Origin: Cryomorphaceae bacterium
Lineage (GTDB): Bacteria > Bacteroidota > Bacteroidia > Flavobacteriales > ECT2AJA-044
Reading direction: 5' to 3'
Assembly (NCBI GenBank): GCA_017798125.1
Contig: CP059070.1
Span: 248,001-312,000 of the forward strand
Length of the DNA: 64,000 nt
Shown here: positions 4,227-63,735 of the stretch, piece after piece
Layout of the letters: each line of letters starts with the position of its first letter
How positions within the stretch are numbered: position 1 is the first letter of the stretch
Notes under the pieces: generated by a model
Database searches by the model: none
Told to the model about the DNA's origin: nothing
The model's input: only the letters and a program-made list of their open reading frames with translations
Made by a program: the position numbers and the translations under genes

Positions 4227-4259
4227 GGACTAACCAACAATTTCTTATTCTCTTTGGCG

Positions 4260-4267
4260 TAACTTTG
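4260..4267 (+). promoter_or_regulatory. -7 box for the DUF983 gene
   Basis: TAACTTTG fits TAnnTTTG and lies 19 bases before ATG 4287, in the 60-base divergent gap. No TTG is seen at the usual -33 distance. Confidence 0.4.
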
Positions 4268-4286
4268 ACGCTCAAATTCCCAATAT

Positions 4287-4667
4287 ATGTTCAAGAAGGG
4301 ATCCCGCTTGTTCAGCATCTTTCGAAATCGATGTCCCCGATGTCACAATGGACATATTTATCAATCGAAGAATCCGTATGCCTTGAGCAGGATGACGCAA
4401 ATGTACGAAAGGTGCAGCCACTGTGATTTGAAATACGAAATGGAACCTGCCTTTTGGTATGGTTCTATGTATGTGGCCTACGGGCTGGCAGTGGCCGTGA
4501 GTGTTGGGATGTTCGTGGCGACTGAAGTGCTGTTCGATTTGACCATTACCGAATACCTTATATATAATGGTATAGTTCTTTTGGTATTGATCCCTGTTAT
4601 GTGGAGAGCCTCGCGGCTGGTCTGGATCAATTTATTTGTGAGCTATAAGAAAGAGTTCGATCAGTAG
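4287..4667 (+). CDS. DUF983 membrane protein
   Basis: A 126-residue inner-membrane protein of the DUF983 family, function unknown. Two cysteine pairs form a zinc-ribbon-like N-terminal part: RCPRCHNGH near residue 18 and RCSHCDLKYE near residue 43. They are followed by the family hallmark PAFWYGSMYVAYGLAV and two hydrophobic segments (about 60-80 and 88-108). Its 3' end overlaps the convergent oxidoreductase gene by 7 bases. It is transcribed alone and diverges from the ABC-F gene. Confidence 0.85.
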   Translation: MFKKGSRLFSIFRNRCPRCHNGHIYQSKNPYALSRMTQMYERCSHCDLKYEMEPAFWYGSMYVAYGLAVAVSVGMFVATEVLFDLTITEYLIYNGIVLLVLIPVMWRASRLVWINLFVSYKKEFDQ

Positions 4668-5665
4668 AATCGGGCAATGTCAACATCGGGCCGTAGGCCC
4701 ATCCCATCCAGCAAATGGTCGGCAAGTTCGCTGGCAAGCAGTGGAGCCATAAGTACACCGCGGCTTCCCAATCCATTGAAGAATACGTCTCTTTCATTTT
4801 GACTAGATCTACCTAGAATGGGGCGGCGATCCTTGGTGGTCGGTCGAATGCCCCACTCGCGTCCGATGATTTCATATGGGGCGTCAATGAGATTCCGGAC
4901 CTGCTCCTCTAAATAGGATTGCCCCTTTTCCGAAATGGTAGGGGATAGATCAAAATGATCATAGGTAGCGCCGATTCTGAGTTCTCGCTCCCCTATGGGT
5001 AAGATGAAAACTCCAGCCTTGATGATCGCCTTGGTCCTCCACGGTTTTTCGAGCCGAATCCTCAGAAGTTCTCCTTTACTCGGGCGAAGCGCATCTGTAG
5101 GAAAACCACCGATTGATTGAGCGCGAACCCCAATCGCCCAGATCACTAAATCGAAGTCAGAAGATGTAGATTCGTCGATTTCGACATACTTGAATCGATT
5201 CAAGGAGGAGAAGTAAATGCGCACCGCATCCATGAAGGCCTGTGTATCGAACCATCCGGCATGATTAACTTTGCCCATACCATGAGCTCCCTGTAGCCCT
5301 GGCGGCAGTGGCTTAAGATCAGGGCTCAAGTACTCACTGAATCCTGCAGTACCGCTGATTTCCATCCATTGATTCTGTTCGGCAATATCGTGGAAGCGAC
5401 GATAAACAGGTACACTATGTCGCCAATACCCACCTAGGCGTTCCTGCCAATCAGCATAGAACTGCTCCTGAAAAGGAACGAATTCATCAGCCCGCCAAAC
5501 CTTTTTCATACGCTTGAGGACCAGTGGATTCACTAATCCTGCTGCGACAGATGTCGATTGATTTCGCTCTTGAAAGTCTGCAAGATGTACCTCGACACCC
5601 CGATCGACTAGAGTGAGCGCCATACAAGAACCCGCCAAACCCTGGCCAACAACGAGCACCTTCAT
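4661..5665 (-). CDS. FAD-dependent oxidoreductase (DAO family)
   Basis: A 334-residue flavoenzyme of the D-amino-acid-oxidase (DAO) superfamily. The N-terminal dinucleotide-binding fold carries GQGLAG (GxGxxG, residues 7-12) directly after the first beta strand and an acidic residue ending the second strand (VHLAD). The C-terminal NGLGSRGVLMAPLLA is the second FAD-contact motif typical of DAO and MnmC-C-like enzymes. No signal peptide, so cytoplasmic. The substrate is not readable; the length and the end motif resemble stand-alone MnmC-C-like proteins. Its ATG overlaps the stop codon of the upstream barrel gene (ATGA), so the two are probably co-translated. Confidence 0.85.
   Translation of the reverse strand: MKVLVVGQGLAGSCMALTLVDRGVEVHLADFQERNQSTSVAAGLVNPLVLKRMKKVWRADEFVPFQEQFYADWQERLGGYWRHSVPVYRRFHDIAEQNQWMEISGTAGFSEYLSPDLKPLPPGLQGAHGMGKVNHAGWFDTQAFMDAVRIYFSSLNRFKYVEIDESTSSDFDLVIWAIGVRAQSIGGFPTDALRPSKGELLRIRLEKPWRTKAIIKAGVFILPIGERELRIGATYDHFDLSPTISEKGQSYLEEQVRNLIDAPYEIIGREWGIRPTTKDRRPILGRSSQNERDVFFNGLGSRGVLMAPLLASELADHLLDGMGLRPDVDIARFY
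4688..4700 (+). repeat. Dispersed hairpin motif, copy 2
   Basis: ATC then GGGCC-GTA-GGCCC, a perfect 5 bp stem near the 3' end of the oxidoreductase gene; the coding strand reads Gly-Leu-Arg-Pro-Asp. Confidence 0.55.
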
Positions 5666-6225
5666 CGAAACAAATATCGAAGATTCAAGCCGAGATCAGC
5701 AAGCAGATTTGGGCCGGTACTCCCACCACCGGTGATTTGGGTGTCCGCCATGAAATGGTAATCAACCCCCAATGAAAATGGAATATGCTCAAACCGATAC
5801 TCGAAACCCATACCGCCGTCAAGTCCGCCACCACTTCCTTCGTATAGTGGAGATTCATCGCCATAGGCTCCATAATGCAATCCTAGACTCAAGTATCCTT
5901 CAAAATTCCCGGTCCCGATGTTTAGGGGTTTGGTGAAATCGGTATGCCACTCCCAAAGACCTGTCATAAGTACCCCGTTCCAACTGGTCGTTAACATGAC
6001 TTCGAGCGCCTGACGAGGTTTGATATAGGCTTTGTAGTTTATTCCATTCGTGACGCCGAGGCGCACACCAACGGAATTCCGGTATTGGGCATTTGCTTGA
6101 TTTGGCCAGCAGGTCAGAACTAGCGCGACCGCAAGGATCAGCACCAAAGAAAAAGAACTCCTACGCGAGGCGCAGGAGTTCCTTAAATTTTTGCTTCCGA
6201 ATGAATCAATATTCCCAGAGATCAT
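5662..6225 (-). CDS. Small outer-membrane beta-barrel protein
   Basis: A 187-residue predicted outer-membrane protein. A hydrophobic run (LVLILAVALVLTC) ends in a signal-peptidase-like site at NQANAQ, and the rest alternates aromatic and polar residues with Gly-rich turns (GVRLGVTNGINYKAYI, GYLSLGLHYGAYG), ending in LNLRYLFR, as small barrels do. Its role is unknown. The ATG at 6225 overlaps the gldN 3' end by 20 bases. A strong terminator hairpin lies inside codons 15-24, so either the true start is TTG 6147 or GTG 6144, or the gene begins within the terminator region. The later starts would leave a signal peptide without a basic N-region, which favours ATG 6225. It overlaps the oxidoreductase start by 4 bases. 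Confidence 0.65.
   Translation of the reverse strand: MISGNIDSFGSKNLRNSCASRRSSFSLVLILAVALVLTCWPNQANAQYRNSVGVRLGVTNGINYKAYIKPRQALEVMLTTSWNGVLMTGLWEWHTDFTKPLNIGTGNFEGYLSLGLHYGAYGDESPLYEGSGGGLDGGMGFEYRFEHIPFSLGVDYHFMADTQITGGGSTGPNLLADLGLNLRYLFR
6155..6181 (-). terminator. Rho-independent terminator after gldN
   Basis: On the minus strand GAACTCCTGCGC pairs with GCGTAGGAGTTC (12 bp with one G-U, loop CTC) and is followed by TTTTTCTTT. It ends the gldKLMN unit but lies inside the first codons of the next gene. Confidence 0.75.
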
Positions 6226-7069
6226 GCTCGAAATTACGAATCTCTTCTTTGATTTTCTCCGCTTCTAAGAGTTGCTCCATTTGAGAATAGCGCTTGTAAT
6301 CATAAACCAATCGGTCATATACGTTATTCTCTTTTGTAATGTAGCTGTGGAAAATGCGCTTATGGAAAATCTCATCAAATGTGCGACGCTCCGCGTCATT
6401 CATTCGATTAAAGGTTTCGTGATTCGCGAGTACCGGGCGGGTTTCCGGGAACCACAACCAGAATAGCTGCTCTTTCTCAATCTGACCTGTCGCTTGATTC
6501 TCTTTGTACGCTACAGGGCAAATTCCGAGAATCCGAACTTCCATAACGGAGCGTTCTTTATCAAAGAACCAGTCTTCTTTAAGCAGATACTCCAAGACGT
6601 CACGGCTTTCTACCTTAATGGTATCCAACCGCCAGAACGGCTCTCCAGTATTGATATCAAAATCCTGAACACTGTCTACAGAGAAGATCTTTGCCGAAAC
6701 TTCTTGCGGGGTCAATGTCCGTTTGAATTCATCATCCGCATAAGCAGTAATGGATCCTTCGTTGACTACGGCTTGGAACAAAACTTCTGAAAGCGACTTA
6801 CGATCCTTGATCGGTACGATCGGATAATAAAGTGGGTGATTCAGCTTCTGCTTCAAGTCGATTTTTTGCCAATAGCGCTTCATCCACATGACATCCGCCT
6901 CACGCAAGTGGTGATAAGGGATCACGCGATTTTCTTTGAAGTGATGCTTGATGAATACCGCATCATCTTCAGCTGTCGGCTGTCGGTTGTAGTCCAATAC
7001 GGTCTGCGCACTCGCAACGGAGGCGATACCGATCATGGTGGCTACTAAGAATCCTTTTACTGACTTCAT
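6206..7069 (-). CDS. gldN: T9SS/gliding motility protein GldN
   Basis: A 287-residue periplasmic component of the type IX secretion system. With the lipoprotein GldK it builds the ring under the outer membrane in well-studied species (PorN/PorK in Porphyromonas). A signal peptide (residues 1-21, ending ASVASA) is followed by the conserved GldN core: NRVIPYHHLREADVMWMKRYW, then KHPLYYP-like NHPLYYPIVP, and the LFWLWFPETRPVLANHE stretch. The length fits the family. It follows gldM by 12 bases as the last gene of gldKLMN, and a terminator follows it. Confidence 0.96.
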   Translation of the reverse strand: MKSVKGFLVATMIGIASVASAQTVLDYNRQPTAEDDAVFIKHHFKENRVIPYHHLREADVMWMKRYWQKIDLKQKLNHPLYYPIVPIKDRKSLSEVLFQAVVNEGSITAYADDEFKRTLTPQEVSAKIFSVDSVQDFDINTGEPFWRLDTIKVESRDVLEYLLKEDWFFDKERSVMEVRILGICPVAYKENQATGQIEKEQLFWLWFPETRPVLANHETFNRMNDAERRTFDEIFHKRIFHSYITKENNVYDRLVYDYKRYSQMEQLLEAEKIKEEIRNFEHDLWEY

Positions 7070-7081
7070 GGTACTTAACTA

Positions 7082-8638
7082 TTACTGTACTGTGAAAACG
7101 ATGGCTCCACAGTTTTTCGTGCCATCCGGGCCTTTTGCCTGAATATTTGTGAAGGAAATATCTGAACCCGGCTTCATATCCTGAATCAAACTTCTTACTT
7201 CACCATTAAACTGGTTTCCGGTTACTCGTACCGTTTGTGTGTATTCCCCTTTTTGGGCACGAACGGTAAACGACGTTACACGGTAGTTAATATCGAATGG
7301 GAAATCCTGCAAGAAGGCTCCAATACCTTGAGTTCCTCCTAGCGCAGATTTCGAAATCTTTCCTTCTGTCTTACCAGCGATCATTGCGGTTGGTGGTGGA
7401 ATACGCTTCACACGGAACTTCATATCTCCGATGTTCTTCATTTTTCCATTCACCTCTGCAGCTACTTTAATGGTAGCCTCAGTTCCTGTTTTAGCTGCCT
7501 TTGCAACATATGATCCCTTTGATCCAGAAATAGAGCATCCAGCACATGAAACTTGCAACTTATCTGGTGCAATTCCAGGTACAGACACATCAATTGGATT
7601 GTCCACACCTCGATAGATTACGTTCATCTTCGTTGGCGAGATTACCGCCGCAGAACGCGCTACTTGATAGGTACGAGGGGCAACTCCATAGCTCTGTACA
7701 CCGGATGGTCCATCAATTTCAATTGCTCCACCCCAAGTGAAAGCTCCCTCAGAAGTAGCGGGTACTTCGTAGATTCCTTTACCGTTGCGGACCGGAACTT
7801 GAATTCCCTCTCCAATTGGATTTCCTTCTTCGTCATACTCATTGTAAACCGTAACTACCGGTTGTTTGGTAGAGTCAAATGCCGCGATGAAAATCTCAGC
7901 ACGGAAGGTGTCTCCAGTAAAAACGTATGAGTTTGGCACAATAGCCGTTGCCTCGAGTGCATTTACCTTCACGTCCGTTGCTCCAATCTTGGCTTGCAAA
8001 TAAGAGATTACATCACTTTCCGTTGCACGTACATCAGATTGCATTTTCGTCAAGAAGGTTACAATCGCCATTAGTGGATAATGCTCAAAGTTGGCATCTT
8101 CCCAGCTGGCTTGTACATCTCCAACTTTCTGCTTACCGGTATCGAAAATGGAGGTAATGTTGGCTTGCAAGCGATCGCTTCCTTGAGAGTTTTGCAACAA
8201 TACTTCACGGTAGCTATCGAGCTTCCCTTTAAGTTCAGTTGCCTTTTTCTCTTTCACCAACAAGTAACTCGCCGCAACCTCGCGGTTGTCCATTTTCTTA
8301 GGCTTGTTCTCATCGTCAACACCACCGGAGCGCTCAATGAGGGTATTCTTCAAATCCTCAATGTACTTGTCCATGGCGTCAGCCTCAGCTTTCACGGCGT
8401 AAGCGGCATCGCGCCACTGTTTCGTTTTCACTGGGTTGTCCTGCATCGCCGCGTCAAACGAGGCGTATACACCACTGTTCTTTTCCTCTACCTTGATATT
8501 CGTGGTGCTCATAGAGTTGTTCACCTTTACGAATGCATCGAGGATTTCCTTAGATACGTTCAAGGCCAAAAGAGCGGTCAACACGAGGTACATCATGTTG
8601 ATCATCTTCTGTCTTGGTGTTAATTTTCCACCTGCCAT
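7082..8638 (-). CDS. gldM: T9SS motor protein GldM
   Basis: A 518-residue inner-membrane protein. Family knowledge: GldM dimers and GldL pentamers form the proton-driven rotary motor of the type IX secretion system, and the periplasmic part of GldM spans to the GldK/GldN ring. The sequence shows the standard N-terminus MAGGKLTPRQKMINMMYLV, one membrane helix at about 14-33, and a long periplasmic region of helical domain (about 35-220) then beta-rich domains with TAMIAGKTEGKISK. The family's two Cys lie in VSCAGCSISG. It follows gldL by 32 bases. Confidence 0.97.
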   Translation of the reverse strand: MAGGKLTPRQKMINMMYLVLTALLALNVSKEILDAFVKVNNSMSTTNIKVEEKNSGVYASFDAAMQDNPVKTKQWRDAAYAVKAEADAMDKYIEDLKNTLIERSGGVDDENKPKKMDNREVAASYLLVKEKKATELKGKLDSYREVLLQNSQGSDRLQANITSIFDTGKQKVGDVQASWEDANFEHYPLMAIVTFLTKMQSDVRATESDVISYLQAKIGATDVKVNALEATAIVPNSYVFTGDTFRAEIFIAAFDSTKQPVVTVYNEYDEEGNPIGEGIQVPVRNGKGIYEVPATSEGAFTWGGAIEIDGPSGVQSYGVAPRTYQVARSAAVISPTKMNVIYRGVDNPIDVSVPGIAPDKLQVSCAGCSISGSKGSYVAKAAKTGTEATIKVAAEVNGKMKNIGDMKFRVKRIPPPTAMIAGKTEGKISKSALGGTQGIGAFLQDFPFDINYRVTSFTVRAQKGEYTQTVRVTGNQFNGEVRSLIQDMKPGSDISFTNIQAKGPDGTKNCGAIVFTVQ

Positions 8639-51998: not shown

Positions 51999-52055
51999 AT
52001 TCGAAGATTTAATTATCGCTTAATCCCATTCTCCGGATTTGTTCGCTGCCTGCCC

Positions 52056-52063: not shown

Positions 52064-52069
52064 CACGTG

Positions 52070-53134
52070 ATGCAGTCGAAGAGAATTTTGGTTTGCCCGC
52101 TGAATTGGGGGCTGGGGCATGCGACGCGTTGTATTCCGATTATTCAAGCCCTACGGGCCGATGGATATACGCCGGTAATTGCTACAAGTGGCCGAGCTTT
52201 ATACCTCTTACGCGAAGAATTTCCAGAGCTTGAATTCATTGAGCTCCCGGATTATCAAATTACCTATCAAAAAAACGGATCGTTTGCCCTAAACCTCGTG
52301 AAACTGGTTCCGTCCGTAATGGCCAAAATCAGGCAGGAGCACAAAGTGCTTCAACGTATAATTGATGAACAGGATATTCACGGGGTTATCAGTGATAATC
52401 GATTTGGTCTTCACACCCACAAGGTTCCGACTGCTTTTGTCAGCAACCAAATTCGAATCCTAGCTCCCATGGGACAGTGGTTCGTAAGCCAGGTAAATCA
52501 GAGCTTCGTCAAGCGTTTTGACGAGTGTTGGATTCCAGATTTCGAAGATGAAAATAATTTGTGTGGGTACTTAACTCAGGGCTTTAGCTCGTCTATCAAA
52601 GCTAAGTACCTAGGCCCCCTGAGTCGTTTTACTCAGATGGCCGAAAAGAAGGAGCATACCTATCGGATCCTGGCCTTGATTTCAGGTCCAGAACCTCAGC
52701 GGAGTTATTTTGAGAAAATTGTGCGTAATCAGCTCATCGATTCAGGGATTAAAGCGGTCATGGTCAGAGGGGTGCCCGAGGAAGAAAAAATGACGACTCA
52801 TGAAGGAAACACGACGATTCATTCATACTGCACAGCGAATGAACTCCTCGACTTGATTTACGATTCGGAACTGGTGATTAGTCGTTCGGGTTACAGTACC
52901 GTTTCTGATCTTACTGCCATTGGTAAGAAAGCTGTTTTCTGCCCCACTCCAGGACAAACGGAACAGGAATTTTTAGCTCGCCGCCTTGACGAAAAGGGCT
53001 TTGTGCCCATGTACGAGCAATCCGAATTCAACCTAGAAGAAGCGCGAATAAAAGCCGAAGACTACTCTGGTCTTCCTTTCTTGGACACGAGCCATCGAAA
53101 CTGGTCGGAGCTCTTTAAGCTTTTTGAAGGGTAA
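52070..53134 (+). CDS. Glycosyltransferase, GT-B fold, MurG/GT28-like
   Basis: A 354-residue cytoplasmic glycosyltransferase. The N-terminal domain begins RILVCPLNWGLGHATRCIPII, with the glycine/His acceptor loop; the C-terminal donor domain shows LISGPEPQRSYFEKIV, HSYCTANELLDLIYDSELVISRSGYSTVSDL and PTPGQTEQEFLARRLDEKG, as in GT28-type enzymes. Donor and acceptor are unknown; a surface polysaccharide or lipid role is plausible. GTG 52067 is an alternative start. Its 3' end overlaps the convergent kinase gene by 20 bases. Confidence 0.85.
   Translation: MQSKRILVCPLNWGLGHATRCIPIIQALRADGYTPVIATSGRALYLLREEFPELEFIELPDYQITYQKNGSFALNLVKLVPSVMAKIRQEHKVLQRIIDEQDIHGVISDNRFGLHTHKVPTAFVSNQIRILAPMGQWFVSQVNQSFVKRFDECWIPDFEDENNLCGYLTQGFSSSIKAKYLGPLSRFTQMAEKKEHTYRILALISGPEPQRSYFEKIVRNQLIDSGIKAVMVRGVPEEEKMTTHEGNTTIHSYCTANELLDLIYDSELVISRSGYSTVSDLTAIGKKAVFCPTPGQTEQEFLARRLDEKGFVPMYEQSEFNLEEARIKAEDYSGLPFLDTSHRNWSELFKLFEG
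52147..52159 (-). repeat. Dispersed hairpin motif, copy 14
   Basis: On the minus strand ATC then GGCCC-GTA-GGGCT: 4 bp plus a terminal G-U, inside the glycosyltransferase gene (Ala-Leu-Arg-Ala-Asp, as in copies 1 and 6). Confidence 0.45.
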
Positions 53135-54152
53135 AGGCGAAGGTAGATCCCACTCCGGGCTTGCTTCGGACCGTGATGGACTGCTTGTGCGCCTCGACGA
53201 TGTGTTTTACAATTGCCAATCCCAAACCCGTACCTCCTTGCTCCCGAGAACGGCTCTTATCAACCCGATAGAAACGCTCAAACAGTCGCGGGAGATCCTC
53301 TTCCGGGATTCCCAATCCATTATCCGTTATCTCGATTAAGATTTGACTGCCCAGATCCGTAAAGTCCAGCTCCACAAAGCCTTCGTCGTCGTTGGAATAA
53401 TTTATCCCGTTGACCATCAAATTGGTGAAAACCTGCTTGACACGCTCGCTATCACATAGGAGCTTAATGGACTTCTGAGCTTTATTCTTGAAGCGCAACT
53501 GGACACCCTTTTTCTTGGCCTTTAGCTCAAGTGTATCCATAACTTCTTGTGCGAGCTCCACTATATCCACTGGACTTACATTCATTTGCAGCGCACCTGC
53601 TTCGAGCTTGGTAATGGTCTCCAGATCATGAACCAAGCGAATCATTCGCTCAACGCTCTTATTCGCACGCAACAGATAGGCGCGATTGATTTCTTCGTCT
53701 TCAAGCGCTCCGTCTAGTAGGGTAAGGATATATCCTTGAATGTTGAAAATGGGGGTCTTGAGCTCATGACTCACATTCCCAATGAATTCTTTTCGGTACG
53801 ATTCCCGCACCTTGAGCTGAGCAATTTCCTCACGTTGGTTCTCCGCCCATTCGCTGACTTCGCGGCTTACCTCGTCCAGATCCGTGGTCACCTCATCCTC
53901 TTCGAAATCCCCGGATCGAATGGCGTGAATATTCTTGTAGAGCAGTTCTACTTTTCGATAGATAAACTGGTAAACGGCGTAGCGAAAAATGAGGAAGCCA
54001 ACAATTAACGTAACTCCTGACACCGCTAGGTTTGCCACAATATTGACCTCCGTTCCCGAAAGACGGGCGGCCAACCAAAAGCTGAACAGAACAAAAATAC
54101 TGGTGATCAGACTCGCAAAAAAGGCGAGCTGATCGGGTCGATCAAATCGCAT
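53115..54152 (-). CDS. phoR: PhoR-type sensor histidine kinase
   Basis: A 345-residue inner-membrane kinase. Two membrane helices (about 9-30 and 38-58) with almost no periplasmic loop, as in PhoR-type sensors that read a partner protein rather than a ligand; then a HAMP-like linker, HisKA with His129 in NVSHELKTPIFNIQGY, and an ATPase domain with N box VNGINYSND, G1 DNGLGI, F box LFERFYRVD and G2 GGTGLGLAIVKHIV. It shares one base with the regulator upstream (TAATG), so they are coupled. Confidence 0.92.
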   Translation of the reverse strand: MRFDRPDQLAFFASLITSIFVLFSFWLAARLSGTEVNIVANLAVSGVTLIVGFLIFRYAVYQFIYRKVELLYKNIHAIRSGDFEEDEVTTDLDEVSREVSEWAENQREEIAQLKVRESYRKEFIGNVSHELKTPIFNIQGYILTLLDGALEDEEINRAYLLRANKSVERMIRLVHDLETITKLEAGALQMNVSPVDIVELAQEVMDTLELKAKKKGVQLRFKNKAQKSIKLLCDSERVKQVFTNLMVNGINYSNDDEGFVELDFTDLGSQILIEITDNGLGIPEEDLPRLFERFYRVDKSRSREQGGTGLGLAIVKHIVEAHKQSITVRSKPGVGSTFAFTLQKA

Positions 54153-54835
54153 TAGGCTTCGAACTTGTAGCCTACGCCCTTGACGGTTTTGATGTATCCT
54201 TCACCGATTTTCTCACGGAGTTTTCGAACGTGGACATCAATGGTACGACCTCCCACAATTACTTCGCTTCCCCAGATCTTATCCAGGATCTCATCGCGGT
54301 TGAATACTTTACCAGGGCGACTGGCCAATAAACTTAAAAGCTCGAATTCTTTGCGTGGAAGCTCTATGCGGTCCCCATCTTTGGTCACCTGGTACTTTTC
54401 CTTATCGATATGCAAGTCTGAGACCTCGATGACAGAATCCAGCTCCATCTTGGACCCAAAACGTCTCAAAAGGGCCCCAACTCGACTAACCAGTACTTTG
54501 GGTTTAATCGGTTTGGTAATGTAGTCATCCGCACCTGCGTCAAAGCCGGCTACTTGACTGTAGTCTTCACCCCGTGCGGTTAAAAATGCGATGAGCACAT
54601 TTGCCGTCTCGGGCGTACTACGCAACACATCACAAACCTCAATGCCGTCCATTCCAGGCATCATCACATCCAAGATTATGAGGTGAGGTACTTCTTTCTT
54701 CGCGAGTTCAACGGCCTCCTGGCCATTGTTCGAGGTGAATACAGTATATCCCTCTTTTCTCAGGTTGTACCCAATGAATTCGAGGATATCTTCCTCGTCG
54801 TCAACCAATAGAAGTTTGTAACCGTTAGGGCTCAT
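54152..54835 (-). CDS. phoP: PhoP/PhoB-type (OmpR family) response regulator
   Basis: A 227-residue regulator. The receiver has the acid pair DDEED (12-16), phospho-acceptor Asp56 in LIILDVMMPGMDG, conserved Thr in FLTARG and Lys in ITKPIKPK. The winged helix (about 130-227) ends GEGYIKTVKGVGYKFEA. A row of TTAAC-like repeats lies in the gap upstream, shared with the TonB receptor gene, and is the likely binding site. A phosphate role is inferred from that array, the PhoR-like partner and the Na/Pi transporter downstream. Confidence 0.92.
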   Translation of the reverse strand: MSPNGYKLLLVDDEEDILEFIGYNLRKEGYTVFTSNNGQEAVELAKKEVPHLIILDVMMPGMDGIEVCDVLRSTPETANVLIAFLTARGEDYSQVAGFDAGADDYITKPIKPKVLVSRVGALLRRFGSKMELDSVIEVSDLHIDKEKYQVTKDGDRIELPRKEFELLSLLASRPGKVFNRDEILDKIWGSEVIVGGRTIDVHVRKLREKIGEGYIKTVKGVGYKFEA

Positions 54836-54887
54836 GGCTTGCAGATTTTGCGGTAAAATTAACTATAAAACCATGCTGTCTTAAACA

Positions 54888-54935
54888 TTAACCAAAGGTT
54901 AATAACCTTAACTCAAGGGTAACAAGGCATTAACT
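54888..54935 (+). promoter_or_regulatory. Pho-box-like array of TTAAC repeats
   Basis: Repeats start at 54888 (TTAACC), 54899 (TTAATA), 54908 (TTAACT), 54919 (GTAACA) and 54930 (TTAACT): spacings 11, 9, 11, 11. This resembles PhoP boxes of Bacillus (TTAACA every 11 bases) and the 11-base half-sites of PhoB. The last unit sits where the -33 box of the receptor promoter would be. Confidence 0.6.
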
Positions 54936-54955
54936 ATCCGCTTACTTCAAGACCG

Positions 54956-54963
54956 TTCCTTTG
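54956..54963 (+). promoter_or_regulatory. -7 box of the TonB-receptor gene
   Basis: TTCCTTTG (one mismatch to TAnnTTTG), 16 bases before ATG 54980 and 20 bases after the last TTAACT unit. The weak box and the missing -33 TTG fit activator-dependent transcription. Confidence 0.4.
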
Positions 54964-54979
54964 CAAAAAATTACTGAGC

Positions 54980-57799
54980 ATGCGTAAGTTACACATTTCA
55001 ATGTTGTTGACCTGTTTGGTATTCCATTCTGTAAGCACATTTGGGCAGGGGAATGGAACCATCTCAGGTACCGTCTTGGACGGAGCTAACGACAACGAGC
55101 CGATGGCCTTCGCCAACGTTGTAACCGTAGGATCCAGCATTGGATCCACCACCGATTTCGATGGAAATTATTCGTTTAGCGCTCCAGCTGGAACCTACGA
55201 TGTCATTATTTCCTTCATCGGTTACAATGTCGACACCGTCAAAGGGGTTCGCGTAACTGCCGGAGAAACAACTACCCTTAATCACACTTTGAACCAAGGC
55301 TCCGTTGCCTTGACAACGGTGGACGTCGTGACTAAGGCCAATAAAGAGTCTGAAGCACAACTCTTGTTGGAGCGAAAAGAGGCTTCCGGAATCGTTCAAA
55401 ACATCGGGGCCCAAAAGCTAAAGGAAACAGGTTCCGCAGATGTTGCGGAAGGATTGACCAAGGTGGCGGGGTTGTCCGTTGTAGGAGGTCAAAATGTATT
55501 TGTTCGAGGTATGGGAGACCGCTACAACAGCGCCTATTTGAATGGGATGCCCATCGCATCTCCGGACCCAGACTTAAAAGTCATCCCCCTGAACATTTTC
55601 CGCACCGCTATCATTCAAAATTTGAATGTTCAGAAAGCCTTCGAAGCGCCTTTATATGGGGATTTTGCCGGTGGGGCCATTAACATTGCCACCAAGGACT
55701 ACCCAACCGAGCCTCTACTTCAAGTGCGTATGGGATTCGGAATCAACACCCAACGCAACGGCGGAGATTTCTACACCTACCAAGGTGGAAACGCCGACTA
55801 CTGGGGATTTGATGATGGTACCCGAGCATACCCTGACGATCTGCGTGGTGAGGAGTTCTATAACAGTCGTATTCAGGGGCAATACAACGAATTCCCTTAC
55901 CTCTTTAACCGCCAAACGATTACCACGCCAATCAACACAGCTTTTGGCGTGACGGCTGGAAACTACATCCCCAATAAAGAAAAAGAAGGAGGATTTGGCT
56001 TCTTGATCTCTTTGGATCACCGGAACAAGGCTTCTTACCAACCGGGAATTTACCGCTTGGTTAACCGCCAAAACGACTTCCAGATCGATTACGATGTTCA
56101 GTCATGGCAGCAAGAAACCAACACTTCCGCCTTGGCCAATGCAGCGTACGAGATTGACAACAACAACAAGATTTCATACAACTTCCTATTCGTCAACCTC
56201 AGCACGGATAATTTCCGTGAGACGGGTGCTGAAACGGGTTTCCACTTTGACTACAACTCTCCCATCTTTACACGTCGATACACTTGGCGTCAAAATGACT
56301 TGATGGTCAATCAGATCTTTGGCGAGCACGAATTCGGCAATTGGAAAATCCGTTGGGACGGATCTTGGAACCGTGCTACATCCACAGAACCGGATCGTCG
56401 TCAATTCGTTTACCTCCGTCAAGGAGATGATTTCCTGATCAACACGCTTGACTTCAACGAAAACCATCGCTTTTACTCTGAGCTAGTAGAAGATGAATAC
56501 AATGCTCGTGTGATGGCTACCTACACCATTAAAATGGACGATAAAGGCAATTCGCTTTGGGATGTTGTCTTTGGTGGTGAAATCAAAAGAAAAGAACGTG
56601 AGTTCGACTATTGGCAGGTTAATATTGATTTCCAGAACTACGTGAATGAAGACGGTGATGTTATGGACCCTAACAATATGGAAGCCGTAATTACCGAAGA
56701 GAATTTTGAGAATGACAAGATTGCCTATCGCGAAATCGCGGGTCCGGCATCCCTCTATACGGCGAATTTGAACATCAATTCGTTCTACGCGCAAACGAGC
56801 GGAAAACTTGGACCGCGTGCAGAAGGTATGATTGGTCTTCGTATTGAGGACGGTCTTCAGACCTTGGACTACCGGGATCAAGTTCAACCGGGAATTCCTA
56901 AACAAGAAACACTAGATCAAATTGCCTTGATGCCAACAGCGTCCTTCAAGTACGATGTCAATGAGAACAGTGCCCTCCGAGCCAGCGCTTCTCGTACAAT
57001 CTCTCGTCCAGCTTACCGAGAGGTCGGACCATTCCAGTACATCGAGTTTTTTGCTGGTCGCCAAAGCATTGGTAACCCAGAACTTCAAAATGGAGCCAAC
57101 TACAACGTCGACGTCCGCTTTGAGACCTACCCTCAACCAGGGAACTTGGTCGCCTTTACTGTCTTCGGAAAATACTTAGACAACCCGATTGAGCGCGTAC
57201 TTGTCGCGACGGCTTCCGGTCAATTGGAATCCTTCATCAATACCGAAAGCGCCGTTGTCGCAGGAATCGAGTTTGAATACTTGCAAAATCTAGGGCGATG
57301 GTTCGGTGAAGAGACAGGATGGAAAAACCTGAGCTTGGGCTTCAATGCCTCAGCGATGTACACCGATGTCACGATTAATCAAGACGCAACCGTAGGAGGA
57401 TCCTCCGTTATATCGACCAACGCGAGTCGCCCGCTTCAGGGAGCATCTCCATATTTGGTCAATGCGGACTTAACCTATACCAAGCGATTCGGGAAGGATG
57501 ATATGCGCAAAACAACAGCCACTTTGAGTTACAATGTCTTTGGACCTCGAATCTTCTCTGCGGGTGCCCAAGGGATCGGAGACATTTACGAACGCCCTGT
57601 GAATACCTTGAATTTCTCTTGGAGAAATCAAATCAGCGATCATTGGTCGGTGAACTTCTACGCACGAAACCTTATGAATCCACTGATTCTTCAGAAGCAA
57701 GAGTCGGATCCAAGCTTGAGCAATGCAGAGCCCGTTATCGTCAATCAGTACAGACAAGGAGTTGATTTCAGCATTTCCATTTCCTACGACGTCTTCTGA
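54980..57799 (+). CDS. TonB-dependent receptor with carboxypeptidase-regulatory-like N-terminus
   Basis: A 939-residue outer-membrane receptor for energised uptake. A signal peptide (1-23, STFGQ) is followed by a carboxypeptidase-regulatory-like domain (about 25-110: GTISGTVLDGANDNEPMAFA, FDGNYSFSAPAGTYDVIISF), a plug (about 115-240: VAEGLTKVAGLSVVGGQNVFVRG, YGDFAGGAINIATKDY) and a 22-strand-type barrel ending ISISYDVF with terminal Phe. It is not followed by a SusD gene, so a glycan role is unlikely. The Pho-box-like array upstream suggests phosphate or organophosphate uptake. A hairpin terminator follows. Confidence 0.93.
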   Translation: MRKLHISMLLTCLVFHSVSTFGQGNGTISGTVLDGANDNEPMAFANVVTVGSSIGSTTDFDGNYSFSAPAGTYDVIISFIGYNVDTVKGVRVTAGETTTLNHTLNQGSVALTTVDVVTKANKESEAQLLLERKEASGIVQNIGAQKLKETGSADVAEGLTKVAGLSVVGGQNVFVRGMGDRYNSAYLNGMPIASPDPDLKVIPLNIFRTAIIQNLNVQKAFEAPLYGDFAGGAINIATKDYPTEPLLQVRMGFGINTQRNGGDFYTYQGGNADYWGFDDGTRAYPDDLRGEEFYNSRIQGQYNEFPYLFNRQTITTPINTAFGVTAGNYIPNKEKEGGFGFLISLDHRNKASYQPGIYRLVNRQNDFQIDYDVQSWQQETNTSALANAAYEIDNNNKISYNFLFVNLSTDNFRETGAETGFHFDYNSPIFTRRYTWRQNDLMVNQIFGEHEFGNWKIRWDGSWNRATSTEPDRRQFVYLRQGDDFLINTLDFNENHRFYSELVEDEYNARVMATYTIKMDDKGNSLWDVVFGGEIKRKEREFDYWQVNIDFQNYVNEDGDVMDPNNMEAVITEENFENDKIAYREIAGPASLYTANLNINSFYAQTSGKLGPRAEGMIGLRIEDGLQTLDYRDQVQPGIPKQETLDQIALMPTASFKYDVNENSALRASASRTISRPAYREVGPFQYIEFFAGRQSIGNPELQNGANYNVDVRFETYPQPGNLVAFTVFGKYLDNPIERVLVATASGQLESFINTESAVVAGIEFEYLQNLGRWFGEETGWKNLSLGFNASAMYTDVTINQDATVGGSSVISTNASRPLQGASPYLVNADLTYTKRFGKDDMRKTTATLSYNVFGPRIFSAGAQGIGDIYERPVNTLNFSWRNQISDHWSVNFYARNLMNPLILQKQESDPSLSNAEPVIVNQYRQGVDFSISISYDVF

Positions 57800-57830
57800 T
57801 TAATACTGCCATAACAATAAGGCCTGTTCC

Positions 57831-57847
57831 TTAACACATTATTAAAA
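57831..57847 (+). promoter_or_regulatory. Weak second Pho-like pair
   Basis: TTAACA at 57831 and TTAAAA at 57842 are 11 bases apart, upstream of the lipoprotein gene, but a terminator lies between them and that gene. Speculative. Confidence 0.2.
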
Positions 57848-57854
57848 ATAACGA

Positions 57855-57879
57855 AAACGCCCCGTTGAACGGGGCGTTT
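57855..57879 (+). terminator. Rho-independent terminator after the TonB-receptor gene
   Basis: AAACGCCCCG pairs with CGGGGCGTTT (10 bp, loop TTGAA), followed by AGTTTTG. Confidence 0.75.
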
Positions 57880-57921
57880 AGTTTTGTCGCAAGAAATTCA
57901 ACTTCTAAACCCGTAACTATA

Positions 57922-59199
57922 ATGAAACAATTGAAGTTCAACCGAATGCTCGCAGTTGCCTTGGCACTCGGTGTAACATTGTCCGCGTGTGATAACGATG
58001 ACGATGACGACAACAACAATGGAAATGCTACTTACACCATTACCGACGTAACTAAGAACGGTGTGGACTACAAAGAGGTAGCCGGTAACATCAACCAAAA
58101 TGTAACCTTTAGCGCCAGCAATAACTACCTATTGAAAGATGGAGTATTTGTGATGGACGGTTCAACCTTGACCATCGAGCCAGGTACTAGCGTATTCGGC
58201 GACAATACAGATGGGGTTGACTTTTTGACCATCAACCAAGGTGCAATGATCAATGCCTGTGGTACAGCTGAGTTACCGATCGTTATGTCTGCCTTGCAGA
58301 GCACAAAAGGTTCTTGGGGTGGTTTGATCATCAACGGTTACGGGGAGATCAACAACGGTTCAACAGCGACAGCTGAATGTAACTCTGGAACCTACGGCGG
58401 TAACGACAATACCGATAACTCAGGTACTTTGTGCTACGTTCGTATTGAGTACGCAGGATTCATCTGCGCAACGGACGACGAGTTGAACGGGTTGACCTTG
58501 AACGCGGTTGGATCAGGTACATCTATCGAGCACGTTCAAATCTTCCGTGGAGCTGACGACGGTATCGAGTGGTTTGGTGGAGCGGCTCAAGTGAAGTACG
58601 CTATCGTAACCGGAGCTCGTGACGATTCTTTTGACTGTACACACGGTTGGGCTGGAAAAGGTCAGTTCTTCGTGGCGCATCAAGACAGCGAGTCCGGAGA
58701 CCGTGGATTTGAGTTTGACAACAACGGAGACGATAACTCTGCTCTTCCTTGGACGAACCCAACTATCTCTAACGTAACACTAGTTGGAGAGGATGATGGT
58801 GATGCTGAGAATACAGGAATGCGTTTGCGTGAAGGTGCTAAATTCCGCATCTGGAACGCCTTGGTGACCAACTTCCCTAAGCACGGTATCCGCGTATCTG
58901 ACTCCATTACCTTGGTTCACGTTGACAATGACGAAGCTTTCGTAAGCAACGCAAGTGTCTTTGGGCTCGGTGGTGGCGGAGACGCGTACCGCGACTGTGC
59001 AAAATTCACAACCGACTACGACTGCGATGAAGCTGCTGTAAATCTTAGCGGTTTCGTAGGAACTAGTTCTTCCAACGCAGATCCAAACGGCGTAGACACT
59101 TGGTTTACCTCAGCTCAATACCGCGGAGCATGTGAGACTGGCGGAAGCTGGTGGACTGGCGGATGGGCTAAAGATGTAGATGGAGACATCATGCAGTAA
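57922..59199 (+). CDS. Surface-exposed beta-helix-like lipoprotein
   Basis: A 425-residue lipoprotein. ATG 57922 (MKQLKFNRMLAVALALGVTLSAC) gives the lipobox LSAC; a start at 57865 would run through the terminator. After the Cys comes DNDDDDDNNN, an acidic stretch like the export signal that sends Bacteroidota lipoproteins to the outside. The body repeats beta-helix-like turns (GSTLTIEPGTSVFGDNTDG, GSWGGLIINGYGEI, LCYVRIEYAGF, TSIEHVQIFRGADDGIEWFGG). Homologues of this pattern are widespread next to TonB receptors and are sometimes mislabelled multidrug transporter; it has no membrane helices. Probably a partner of the receptor upstream; the ligand is unknown. Confidence 0.8.
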   Translation: MKQLKFNRMLAVALALGVTLSACDNDDDDDNNNGNATYTITDVTKNGVDYKEVAGNINQNVTFSASNNYLLKDGVFVMDGSTLTIEPGTSVFGDNTDGVDFLTINQGAMINACGTAELPIVMSALQSTKGSWGGLIINGYGEINNGSTATAECNSGTYGGNDNTDNSGTLCYVRIEYAGFICATDDELNGLTLNAVGSGTSIEHVQIFRGADDGIEWFGGAAQVKYAIVTGARDDSFDCTHGWAGKGQFFVAHQDSESGDRGFEFDNNGDDNSALPWTNPTISNVTLVGEDDGDAENTGMRLREGAKFRIWNALVTNFPKHGIRVSDSITLVHVDNDEAFVSNASVFGLGGGGDAYRDCAKFTTDYDCDEAAVNLSGFVGTSSSNADPNGVDTWFTSAQYRGACETGGSWWTGGWAKDVDGDIMQ

Positions 59200-59220
59200 G
59201 GCATTATCCAATAACAACAT

Positions 59221-59253
59221 AAAAAAGGGTTGCTCTTCGGGTAACCCTTTTTT
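59221..59253 (+). terminator. Rho-independent terminator after the lipoprotein gene
   Basis: AAAAAAGGGTTGC pairs with GTAACCCTTTTTT (13 bp with one G-U, loop TCTTCGG). A and T tracts on either side make it bidirectional. Confidence 0.85.
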
Positions 59254-59307
59254 ATTCTCCATCACTTTAATTGTGTTCCGTACCTTGAAGCTTCAAAATT
59301 TCACCCG

Positions 59308-61740
59308 ATGAAAAAGCACTACTTCTTCTTTGTTGTCTTACTATTTGCTTCCAGCATCATGATGGCCACAACCCATCAAGTGGATCTGGGAGGCCCTAAC
59401 GGAAACACATTCAATCCAGCGACCCTGACCGTCTTTGCAGGGGACACGGTCAACTGGACGAATTTGGGTGGGTTTCACAACGTAAACGGGAACACCGGAA
59501 CCTTCCCAGGAAATCCTGCCTCTTTTGGAAATTCGACTTCTTCTTCCGCATGGAATTATTCCTTCGTTTTTACGTCTCCAGGAACCTACAACTATCAATG
59601 TGACCCTCACGCGGGGCTAGGTATGACCGGGACGGTAACAGTACTACCAGCACCCGCTGTTTCTACGGTAAATTTCACGACATCCAGTCAAGGTGTTTCT
59701 GAAGGAATAGGAGTCGTTCGCATTAGTCTCTCTATTTCACCAGCAACCACAAGCGCTGACACCATTGTTGTTACTGTTACCCCTGGTGCAGGCCTGGATA
59801 CCACGGACGGGACTTCCACACCTCCGACTGACCCAATTACGGGAGAGATCATCCTCGCTCTAGCGGCAGGAGCGGACTCTACCTTTATCGACCTCAGCAT
59901 CAACGATGACAACCTTGTTGAAACTAGCGAAACAGCCTCCTTTGACATTACATATGTGTCTTCTGGATTGACCATTGGAACTAGCACAAACGTGAATATT
60001 ACAATTTTGGATAATGATCCGGCCGTTCCGACTTGCGCTGATCTCTTCTTCAGCGAATACATCGAAGGATCTGGAAACAATAAAGGGCTTGAGCTTTTCA
60101 ACCCTACTCCCAACACCATCGACCTCACCAATTACTTGGTGATTGAAAGCGGCAATGGCGGAAGCTTTGTCGATACGCTGGATATATCCGGAACCCTGGC
60201 ACCCTACGCCACCTACAGACTTTGCACGGACCAAGCCGATCCAGTTATGCTTGCCGTGGCCGATACGATTCTGTCCTTCCCAAGTGTGGCTCACTTCAAC
60301 GGAGACGATGCACTCATCTTGTGGAATGGAACCGATACCCTAGACATTATTGGAGAGCCTGGAGTAGATCCAGGATCCAGTTGGCCGGTGGGTTCAGGGA
60401 GCACACAAAACCACACACTTGTTCGTAAGATTAATATACAAGGTGGTTCCTTAGATTGGACCTCAGGAGCGAATGAATGGGATGTCTATCCTCAAAACAC
60501 CTTTGGTTTGTATGGGTGGCACACCTTCAATCCATGCGGTATTAGCACTCCAGTTCTATCATTTGCCTCTGCCGCCCAACTTGTGGATGAAAGTGCCGGC
60601 ACTGCCACCTTTGATGTAGGTATTGCAAATCCAGACCCCAACAACCCGACAAGCGTTCAAGTCTTTGTCACAGGGGGTACGGCAACCAGCGGACAGGATT
60701 ATGTCATCTCATCGCCAACCATTGTCACTTTCCCCGCCGGCAGCTCAGCTTTGCAGCCCGTGAGCATCGCGATCGTGGACGACAACATCGCAGAAGGGAA
60801 TGAACTAATTTCATTTGGCCTTTCAAATGCGACCAATGGGGGAACCATTATTGGGCCCACCTTCTTTATTTCCATTTTGGATAATGATGTGCCCATACCT
60901 ATGTATTCAGTCGCCGATGTAACCACCAATAATGCCGCTGGCGAACCAGATTCCAACGGAGTATTCTGCTCCTTGGAAGGTGTTGTACTAGGGGGCAACC
61001 TGCGCAGCGGAGGCCTGCAGTTCACCTTGCACGACGGGACAGGCGGTATTGGAACGTTTGCCGATACTCCGCTCAATAATTACACGGTCACCGAAGGTGA
61101 TTTAGTTCGCGTATATGGGGACGTTGGATTCTTTAACGGCCTCACGCAGCTCTACATGGACAGCGTCATCTTGATCAGTCAAGGAAACCCCTTGCCGACC
61201 CCAACCATTGTGACGTTCCTGGATGAAACTACAGAGTCTGAATTGGTGCGCATCGACAATTTAACCTTAGTAGACCCCGCTCAGTGGACGGGTTCGGGAA
61301 GTGGTTTCAATGTTGAAGTCACCGACGGATTAAGCACCTACGATATGCGTATTGACAACGATGTCGACTTGTACAGTCAGCCTGCTCCATCTGGACCGTT
61401 CCACGCCATAGGAATAGGAGGCCAATTTGACTTTGACTCGCCCTACGACGAGGGATATCAATTCTTGCCCCGCTCTTCAGCGGACATCATTTCGACCATT
61501 GGAATTGATGAGAAGCGTTCAGATTTCAAAGCTTATCCGGTTCCCTTCACTGATCGTCTGATCATTGAAGTTGAAAAGGAAGCTGAAATCCGAGTTTGGG
61601 GTGCCGACGGAAGGCTAGTCTACAGCGCTCATATTTCGGGAACGACTCCCTTAAATACCTCGACTTGGGCCATAGGAGTTTACTCTATGGAACTTCGAAC
61701 AGAACACGGGTCTTCTTTAAGATCAATTATCAAGCAATAA
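59308..61740 (+). CDS. T9SS cargo with cupredoxin, Calx-beta, lamin-tail and sorting domains
   Basis: An 810-residue secreted protein. Signal peptide 1-20. Residues about 22-113 form a plastocyanin-like cupredoxin with all four type-1 copper ligands: His57 (GGFHNV), Cys98, His101 (YQCDPHAG) and Met106. Then a Calx-beta domain (about 115-235), a lamin-tail-like domain (about 240-400: FFSEYIEGSGNNKGLELFNP), a second Calx-beta domain (about 410-525), an OB-fold-like stretch (about 530-725) and a type A T9SS C-terminal domain (about 735-810: KAYPVPFTDRLIIEVEKE, WAIGVYSMELRTEHG). A secreted copper protein fused to adhesion domains; an electron-transfer or copper role is possible. It starts a separate unit after the terminator. 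Confidence 0.85.
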   Translation: MKKHYFFFVVLLFASSIMMATTHQVDLGGPNGNTFNPATLTVFAGDTVNWTNLGGFHNVNGNTGTFPGNPASFGNSTSSSAWNYSFVFTSPGTYNYQCDPHAGLGMTGTVTVLPAPAVSTVNFTTSSQGVSEGIGVVRISLSISPATTSADTIVVTVTPGAGLDTTDGTSTPPTDPITGEIILALAAGADSTFIDLSINDDNLVETSETASFDITYVSSGLTIGTSTNVNITILDNDPAVPTCADLFFSEYIEGSGNNKGLELFNPTPNTIDLTNYLVIESGNGGSFVDTLDISGTLAPYATYRLCTDQADPVMLAVADTILSFPSVAHFNGDDALILWNGTDTLDIIGEPGVDPGSSWPVGSGSTQNHTLVRKINIQGGSLDWTSGANEWDVYPQNTFGLYGWHTFNPCGISTPVLSFASAAQLVDESAGTATFDVGIANPDPNNPTSVQVFVTGGTATSGQDYVISSPTIVTFPAGSSALQPVSIAIVDDNIAEGNELISFGLSNATNGGTIIGPTFFISILDNDVPIPMYSVADVTTNNAAGEPDSNGVFCSLEGVVLGGNLRSGGLQFTLHDGTGGIGTFADTPLNNYTVTEGDLVRVYGDVGFFNGLTQLYMDSVILISQGNPLPTPTIVTFLDETTESELVRIDNLTLVDPAQWTGSGSGFNVEVTDGLSTYDMRIDNDVDLYSQPAPSGPFHAIGIGGQFDFDSPYDEGYQFLPRSSADIISTIGIDEKRSDFKAYPVPFTDRLIIEVEKEAEIRVWGADGRLVYSAHISGTTPLNTSTWAIGVYSMELRTEHGSSLRSIIKQ

Positions 61741-61754
61741 GTTAGTCCAAAACC

Positions 61755-61762
61755 TATATTTG
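61755..61762 (+). promoter_or_regulatory. -7 box of the Na/Pi transporter gene
   Basis: TATATTTG fits TAnnTTTG and ends 17 bases before ATG 61780. No TTAAC repeats precede it. Confidence 0.45.
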
Positions 61763-61779
61763 CTCGCAAATTCGCGGTC

Positions 61780-63735
61780 ATGAATTACTCTCTTTTCGAT
61801 TTCTTGTCGTTGGTTGGTGCCCTAGGCTTTTTCATCTACGGCATGAAGGTTATGAGCGACGGCATCCAAAAGGTTGCCGGCAATCGTATGCGCAAGATTT
61901 TGAGCGCGATGACCTCCAATCGCTTGTTTGGAGTTTTTACCGGATTCTTCATTACCTCATTGGTTCAGTCCTCTTCCGCCACTACTGTAATGGTGGTGAG
62001 TTTCGTGAATGCGGGCTTGCTTTCACTGGTAGAGTCGATCGGCGTAATTATGGGAGCAAATATTGGAACGACCTTGACCGCATGGCTCATCTCTATTTTC
62101 GGCTTCAAAGTGAAGATTTCAGCGATGGCCCTTCCGATTATTGCGTTCGGATTCCCAATGCTGTTTTCCTCGAAAAGCACCGTGAAATCTTGGGGGGAAG
62201 TACTCATTGGTTTTGCCCTACTTTTTATGGGCTTGGAGTTCTTGAAAGGCAGTGTTCCCGACCTTCAATCCAATCCAGAGGTCCTGGAATTCCTGAGCCA
62301 CTATACGGATAAAGGCGTACTCTCCACCCTCATCTTCATTGGTGTCGGTAGTATTATTACCGTCGTGGTCCAGTCCTCGTCGGCAGCCATGGCCCTAACT
62401 CTTGTGATGTGCTATCAGGGCTGGATTCCATTCCCAATGGCCGCAGCCATGATTATGGGTGAGAACATTGGAACAACCATCACGGCCAATTTAGCGGCAC
62501 TGGTAGCCAACGTTCATGCTAAGAGAGCTGCCCGCGCGCATTTTCTCTTCAATGTTTTTGGCGTAGTCTGGATGATCATTGCCTTCCCGCTGTTCATCAA
62601 CAACATCAACAACTACATGGCGGACAACCCGACCATGAGCGGTGTAGGAGGACGAACTTATTCATTCAATGAAGCCCCAGAAGAAGAAGCCTTCAATCAA
62701 AATGTGACTACTCGTTTGGGAGAAGCCGCAGACTTTGTTTCATGGGATTGGTCGGAGCCTCAACGGCTCGATGTTCACTACGAGCTATTCAAAGCCTCAG
62801 AAAACAACATCAATATTGATTCGGTCGCCCGCATTGCGTTCCAGGAAGAATTGAATGCGGCTGGACTGATCGCCGGTCAATACGAGGTTCAAAATGTCGG
62901 GGCGCGCCCTATGGAAGAAGCCAGCGCCATTCCTATTGCCCTTTCCATCTTCCACACAACCTTCAACATTCTCAATGTACTTCTACTCGTCTGGTTCGTG
63001 CCCTTTATCGCGCGAATCGTGACTCGATTCCTTCCCGCAAAAGGAGTGGATGACGAAGTATTCCAGCTCAGCTTTATTGGCAGCGGCATGATGGGTACGG
63101 CAGAACTCTCCATCATAGAGGCGCGTAAAGAAATCAGCAAATTCGGTGAGATCACGGCAAAACTCTACGACGCTGTTCCTCAATTGTTGCACGCCACTGA
63201 AGAAAAGAAGTTCAAGAAGCTTCTGAAGCGCGTCGCCAAGTATGAGGACATGACCGACCGTATGGAATTGGAGATTGCCAAGTATTTGAGTAAGGCTTCT
63301 GAAAACGAGCTTTCCAAGGATGCATCGCGCAGAGTGCGCAGCATGCTCAGCATCATTTCGGATCTCGAGACCATTGGTGACTTGTGCTACCAGATTGCGC
63401 AGAACATGGAGCGTCGTCGGGAAACAAAGGCCTACTTCACCCCAGAACTGCGTCAAAAATCAGAACAGATGTTCCATGCTGTGGAGCGCTCTATTGAGTT
63501 GATGACAAAGAATCTGAACCAGGACTACGAAAAGGTCTCTTTGACCGAGGCTAAAGACTTGGAAGAAGAGATCAACGAATTGAGAAATCAACTTCGCAAT
63601 GAGCATCTCGAGAACATCGAAAAGGGACTCTACCCCATTCATTCTGGGATGTACTACAACGACCTCATCCACAGCTTGGAAAAGATCGGCGACCATGCCT
63701 TCGACGTATCGGAGGCCATTGTCCTAGAAGCTTAA
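61780..63735 (+). CDS. Na+/phosphate cotransporter (PNaS family) with PhoU-like domain
   Basis: A 651-residue inner-membrane symporter. The two inverted Na/Pi repeats carry the QSSS signature: SLVQSSSATTVMVVSFVNAG near residue 60 and VVVQSSSAAMALTLVMCYQG near residue 200, each followed by GANIGTT or GENIGTT. A non-cytoplasmic insert (about 280-385) is polar, then more helices, then a PhoU-like helical domain (about 430-640: FKKLLKRVAKYEDMTDRMELEIAKYL, IISDLETIGDLCYQIA). PhoU domains link phosphate flux to PhoR signalling. It ends 4 bases into the convergent gene at the right edge. Confidence 0.94.
   Translation: MNYSLFDFLSLVGALGFFIYGMKVMSDGIQKVAGNRMRKILSAMTSNRLFGVFTGFFITSLVQSSSATTVMVVSFVNAGLLSLVESIGVIMGANIGTTLTAWLISIFGFKVKISAMALPIIAFGFPMLFSSKSTVKSWGEVLIGFALLFMGLEFLKGSVPDLQSNPEVLEFLSHYTDKGVLSTLIFIGVGSIITVVVQSSSAAMALTLVMCYQGWIPFPMAAAMIMGENIGTTITANLAALVANVHAKRAARAHFLFNVFGVVWMIIAFPLFINNINNYMADNPTMSGVGGRTYSFNEAPEEEAFNQNVTTRLGEAADFVSWDWSEPQRLDVHYELFKASENNINIDSVARIAFQEELNAAGLIAGQYEVQNVGARPMEEASAIPIALSIFHTTFNILNVLLLVWFVPFIARIVTRFLPAKGVDDEVFQLSFIGSGMMGTAELSIIEARKEISKFGEITAKLYDAVPQLLHATEEKKFKKLLKRVAKYEDMTDRMELEIAKYLSKASENELSKDASRRVRSMLSIISDLETIGDLCYQIAQNMERRRETKAYFTPELRQKSEQMFHAVERSIELMTKNLNQDYEKVSLTEAKDLEEEINELRNQLRNEHLENIEKGLYPIHSGMYYNDLIHSLEKIGDHAFDVSEAIVLEA

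Follow-up and report, generated by a model that had tools for sequence, protein, structure and literature searches.

Our analysis identifies what is very probably the phosphate-starvation (Pho) control locus of a Flavobacterium relative, the Cryomorphaceae bacterium of assembly GCA_017798125.1, within a stretch of 64 kb (contig CP059070.1, positions 248,001 to 312,000; hereafter the window, in whose numbering positions are given) of a genome that forms a single contig of 2.84 Mb and is 96% complete. A PhoR-PhoB type pair lies divergent from a TonB-dependent receptor gene, which is followed by the gene for a beta-helix lipoprotein, and a pf04101 glycosyltransferase gene stands on the kinase side, the arrangement of the flavobacterial phoBR locus (PUSIV). 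A preliminary description, made from the sequence alone, had proposed a phosphate-response locus here, and the proposal is supported both by the match to the phoBR locus of Flavobacterium johnsoniae and by the occurrence of the operator-like array described below before phosphate porin, PiT and pstS genes. Open reading frame and domain searches of the window recovered all six genes listed in that description with the domains assigned to them, and added the glycosyltransferase gene at 52067, which it had overlooked. Regulator, kinase, divergent receptor and lipoprotein form a core that is conserved across Flavobacteriales: searches with the receptor found the receptor and lipoprotein throughout the order, mostly with a divergent regulator (63-69% identical to that of the window). 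The lipoprotein gene adjoins and follows the receptor gene in 80 of 80 named loci, the regulator gene lies inside the flank in 62 of the 80, mostly directly divergent from the receptor, and 46 of 96 loci also contain a glycosyltransferase homologue. The receptor-lipoprotein pair is also present in Pedobacter and Proteiniphilum.

The array upstream of the receptor gene consists of the units TTAAC (54888), TTAAT (54899), TTAAC (54908), GTAAC (54919), TTAAC (54930) and CTTAC (54941), spaced by 11, 9, 11, 11 and 11 bp, with the 9-bp interval between 54899 and 54908. The last unit starts exactly 19 bp ahead of the TTTGC at 54960, part of a -7 element that follows the flavobacterial consensus TAnnTTTG (PMC9723704), and no TTG is found at the -33 position of this promoter. 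As in a Pho box, 11-bp direct repeats thus replace the -35/-33 element at a fixed distance from the -10/-7 box. The missing -33 TTG and five TTAAC-like units had been recognized before and both stand, while the sixth unit, CTTAC, had escaped notice. The comparison across species covered 81 receptor promoters, 79 from named loci and the other two from the window and its sister species. In this set TAAC pairs 11 bp apart numbered 90, against 1.1 +/- 1.1 in dinucleotide shuffles, with further spacing peaks at 22, 33, 44 and 55 bp and no spacing excess on the opposite strand; after dereplication the 38 promoters left still held 38 TAAC pairs at 11 bp. The 19-bp register from the last unit to TTTG was kept in 72 of the 81 promoters. 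The earlier view that an 11-bp Pho box serves the receptor directly is supported. A matrix trained on other genera, with this genus left out, placed the receptor site first in the 64 kb, both strands being scanned, with a score of 39.7 against 4.8 for the runner-up, the lipoprotein promoter. Judged from these promoter sequences, a putative operator can be written precisely for the whole order, as 11-bp TAAC units 19 bp from TTTGC. No comparable description was found in a literature search, from which subscription journals were mostly absent.

An anchored pattern of three units and TTTG in register matches the 2.84-Mb genome exactly at a single site, the receptor promoter, and the sister species likewise has one perfect match at the same place. 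Plain patterns were rejected as genome-wide signals, with no enrichment in the own genome for either TTAAC-N6-TTAAC (13 matches against 10 in reversed controls) or the three-unit pattern (10 against 18); the array must therefore be read together with the promoter register. The genome's second exact match to TAAC-N7-TAAC-N7-TAAC, at 1936-1961 of the window, has no suitable downstream gene on its strand and is probably due to chance.

As expected of a Pho box, the array recurs before known phosphate genes (porin O/P, PiT and pstS). In a gene-class test, for which the -7 columns were left out of the matrix and the threshold was the 95th percentile of other genes, this threshold was exceeded by 18 of 24 phosphate porin genes, 8 of 14 PiT transporter genes, 3 of 4 pstS genes and 31 of 61 lipoprotein genes, against none of 20 kinase genes; the genes compared lie around the phoBR locus, so phosphate genes are over-represented and it is the contrast with other genes of the same loci that counts. 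Array-like units also precede the porin gene next to phoR in several Flavobacterium, and in five Aquimarina loci (L112, L114, L118, L119 and L179, near 5860-7100) 11-bp TAAC units lie upstream of a chromate-transporter gene that is located near the gene for a phosphate porin. Outside the window, the promoter of a gene for a PlcP-like phosphoesterase (G000:C1:2147022-2147966; L184) carries the anchored array with a single mismatch. The best remaining loose matches to the anchored pattern in the own and sister genomes lie before this same plcP-like gene, as does a loose match in Flavobacterium hibernum. The claim of a strong plcP array was given up, as the signal is marked against shuffles yet a modest excess against real promoters, and plcP is a probable carrier of the array. 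In some Flavobacterium (L165, L166, L143 and L170, around 4200-6100) plcP-like and glycosyltransferase genes lie end to start beside phoBR, an arrangement that suggests a lipid-remodelling operon. Upstream of the glycosyltransferase gene of the window a degenerate pair, TTAAT-11-TTAAT, lies within 52006-52026 and is kept in the sister species.

Table 1. Coordinates of the genes and predicted control elements of the locus in the window.
Feature	Position	Strand	Description
Glycosyltransferase	52067..53134	+	PF04101/PF13528 Pfam match; left edge of conserved locus
PhoR-type histidine kinase	53115..54152	-	HisKA/HATPase
PhoB-type response regulator	54152..54835	-	OmpR family, from domain searches
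Putative Pho box array	54888..54945	+	six units
Receptor -7 element	54956..54963	+	TTCCTTTG
TonB-dependent receptor	54980..57799	+	carboxypeptidase-like N-terminal domain and plug
Probable lipoprotein promoter	57830..57886	+	weak pair TTAAC 57831 / TTAAA 57842; -7 box TAGTTTTG at 57879-57886
Intercistronic hairpin	57858..57876	+	CGCCCCGTTGAACGGGGCG; between receptor and lipoprotein genes, upstream of -7 box
Surface lipoprotein	57922..59199	+	signal peptide; CDNDDDDDNNN from lipobox Cys; right-handed beta-helix
Terminator hairpin	59226..59248	+	closes receptor-lipoprotein transcript
Cupredoxin / Calx-beta / LTD protein	59308..61740	+	type IX secretion (T9SS) tail; separate unit, fast evolving
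Na/Pi gene -7 box	61755-61762	+	TATATTTG
Na/Pi cotransporter	61780..63735	+	C-terminal PhoU domains

A separate promoter with two weak units probably serves the lipoprotein gene, a view that rests on the intercistronic hairpin and on the -7 box that follows it and is conserved in the sister species. The pair at 57831, noted as weak in the preliminary description, is real: it too is conserved in that species, and it belongs to the second-best matrix site of the window. The hairpin is strong and GC-rich; as its place is taken by another, shorter stem in the sister species, its position rather than its sequence may matter, through attenuation or transcript stability. The lipoprotein has no Pfam match. 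Its AlphaFold2 model is a right-handed beta-helix (mean pLDDT 79.7, pTM 0.84), for which Foldseek alone gave weak matches and VIA-align gave a Z of about 22 to the alginate epimerases AlgE/AlgG and to PL6 lyases (rmsd 3-4 A over 260-296 residues, 10-15% identity), a shared fold that shows no function. The acidic tract after its lipobox cysteine is presumably the kind typical of surface-exposed Bacteroidota lipoproteins. The pair is not of the SusCD/PusCD type, as the receptor reaches 39.6 of 368 bits with the SusC-type model TIGR04056 and the lipoprotein is a beta-helix rather than SusD-like.

The preliminary description treated the whole row 54152-63735 as one locus, and a single phosphate regulon in which the cupredoxin and Na/Pi genes are co-induced with the receptor would agree with the gene order, which the sister species shares, and with two uncultured Flavobacteriales in which an Na/Pi-PhoU gene follows the lipoprotein gene and seems to share an operon with a phosphate porin gene. 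We nevertheless consider this unlikely. The lipoprotein transcript ends in a terminator here and, at the same place, in the other species of the genus; no array was found before the cupredoxin gene or the Na/Pi gene, and the Na/Pi gene is preceded by a -7 box of its own. The idea of an array-driven unit reaching these two genes is thus not supported, and what had been said of separate promoters for the downstream genes holds, with their own -7 boxes before the lipoprotein and Na/Pi genes. On their sequences, the cupredoxin and Na/Pi genes appear to be separate transcription units without an array. The Na/Pi protein itself is well assigned, scoring 180.1 bits with the symporter model NF037997 (cut-off 50) and containing two PF02690 stretches, a duplication. 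In the two uncultured Flavobacteriales (L122:10901-15317 and L160:10974-15333) the receptor, lipoprotein, phosphate porin and Na/Pi-PhoU genes lie in a row, with 15-22 bp between the porin gene and the transporter gene.

The regulator could instead answer another envelope signal, as proposed for the ArcA-like PhoPR of Riemerella (redox and aerotolerance), and the receptor could import something that contains no phosphorus, such as a glycan or a metal. The beta-helix is a fold typical of carbohydrate-active proteins, a cupredoxin is encoded close by, and the PhoP of Riemerella has an ArcA-like motif and a broad regulon (PMC9603813). In addition to the over-representation of phosphate genes in the gene-class test, several points weigh against the Pho assignment. 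The regulator falls below the cut-offs of the PhoB equivalogs (TIGR02154, 227.8 of 296.2 bits; NF053854, 214.5 of 270 bits), even though these are its two best models, and the kinase falls below those of the PhoR models (TIGR02966, 235.7 of 334.2 bits; NF053855, 173.1 of 500 bits), which the envelope-signal alternative can also claim. Of 30 plcP promoters from relatives, which score only moderately, 5 exceed the 95th percentile of the control genes; in F. johnsoniae, phosphate depletion did not induce the porin gene adjoining phoR (-1.3, not significant; PMC8115612); and the Riemerella regulator is a candidate orthologue, likened to that of the window by motif. The array, however, recurs before phosphate porin, PiT and pstS genes, and the matching F. 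johnsoniae locus is strongly induced by phosphate depletion and not under nitrogen or iron limitation (PMC8115612), so that a non-phosphate role seems very improbable. In that species the log2 changes on phosphate depletion were +8.0 for the receptor, +9.9 for the lipoprotein, +3.1 for PhoB and +5.4 for the glycosyltransferase, with +8.6 for the unlinked PlcP (PMC8115612). Least likely of all, to the point of being negligible, is that a different, dyad-symmetric regulator binds the two inverted repeats that overlap the distal units in the window (ATTAACC-AAA-GGTTAAT and AAGGTTAATAACCTT): the sister species retains the direct 11-bp units but neither dyad intact, on which ground the inverted-repeat reading was rejected, and across the 81 promoters TAAC alone is in excess (335, against 124 for GTTA and 134 in shuffles). 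Since ATTAACC-AAA-GGTTAAT is not conserved in the sister species, the repeat over the distal units is probably incidental.

Under the Pho reading, we infer the following course for binding, induction and substrate. At low phosphate, the kinase would phosphorylate the regulator, whose molecules would sit in tandem on the 11-bp repeats along one face of the DNA, the last of them at the usual place of the -33 element, and would recruit RNA polymerase to a promoter that has only a -7 element. The receptor and the surface beta-helix lipoprotein would thus be switched on, the lipoprotein additionally from a weaker Pho-type promoter of its own, and together they would capture and import a phosphorus-containing compound, probably an organic one. 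The glycosyltransferase would probably make phosphorus-free lipids together with the PlcP phospholipase encoded elsewhere, and the Na/Pi protein may move phosphate across the inner membrane.

How the kinase would perceive phosphate is less evident. Its two membrane segments are joined by a short loop, and it has no recognized sensor domain; PstC was not found in the own genome, whose only PhoU domains are the two fused to the Na/Pi transporter, and of the 16 genomes searched, each of which has the phoBR pair at the locus, 11 had neither PhoU nor PstC above cut-off. One of the 16, a Flavobacterium, has pstC and phoU a few kb from its phoBR locus (G225:C1:807140-811728), and array-like units before pstS (L092:17140). 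It is conceivable, though we regard it as rather doubtful, that the fused PhoU replaces PstSCAB-PhoU as the phosphate sensor of PhoR, with the transporter reporting phosphate flux to a kinase that lacks a recognized sensor domain. The locus sharpens the question of how PhoR senses phosphate in genomes that have neither PhoU nor PstC. Our findings also provide a putative operator for phosphate control in Flavobacteriales that is precise enough to be tested; few operators are known in this phylum, and one so defined makes Pho regulons predictable from sequence.

In Escherichia coli and Bacillus subtilis, the Pho boxes of PhoB and PhoP are 11-bp direct repeats that replace the upstream promoter element. 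The array of the window shares the 11-bp period, and its TTAAC unit resembles the TTAACA unit of B. subtilis; it differs in its Bacteroidota -7 TTTG promoter, its 19-bp register and its six or more units. The PhoP of Riemerella anatipestifer, for which DAP-seq gave TTTAACA as the core motif, binds a TonB receptor promoter in vitro (PMC9603813); it is reported to regulate virulence and to recognize a motif like that of ArcA, and unit spacing and promoter register are not described in the accessible part of that report. Another phosphate-starvation lipoprotein, ElpS of Caulobacter crescentus (PMC2996285), is stated to be related to the FI-FIII family of F. johnsoniae (PMC8115612), and is like the lipoprotein of the window by description. 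The closest counterpart is the F. johnsoniae phoBR locus (PUSIV, Fjoh_0541-0546), which comprises a pf04101 glycosyltransferase, PhoR, PhoB, a TonB receptor and a beta-helix-type lipoprotein (FII, IPR011050) (PMC8115612). The gene set is therefore not new, contrary to the preliminary description, as the same receptor-lipoprotein pair beside phoBR has been measured as phosphate-induced and this kind of locus is already known from F. johnsoniae (PMC8115612). The words promoter and motif are absent from the main text of that paper. The match is one of gene order and domains; by position and domain, the glycosyltransferase of the window would be the counterpart of the phosphate-induced Fjoh_0541. 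The two loci differ in that F. johnsoniae has an OprP porin between glycosyltransferase and PhoR, where the window has none, whereas in the window the cupredoxin and Na/Pi-PhoU genes follow.

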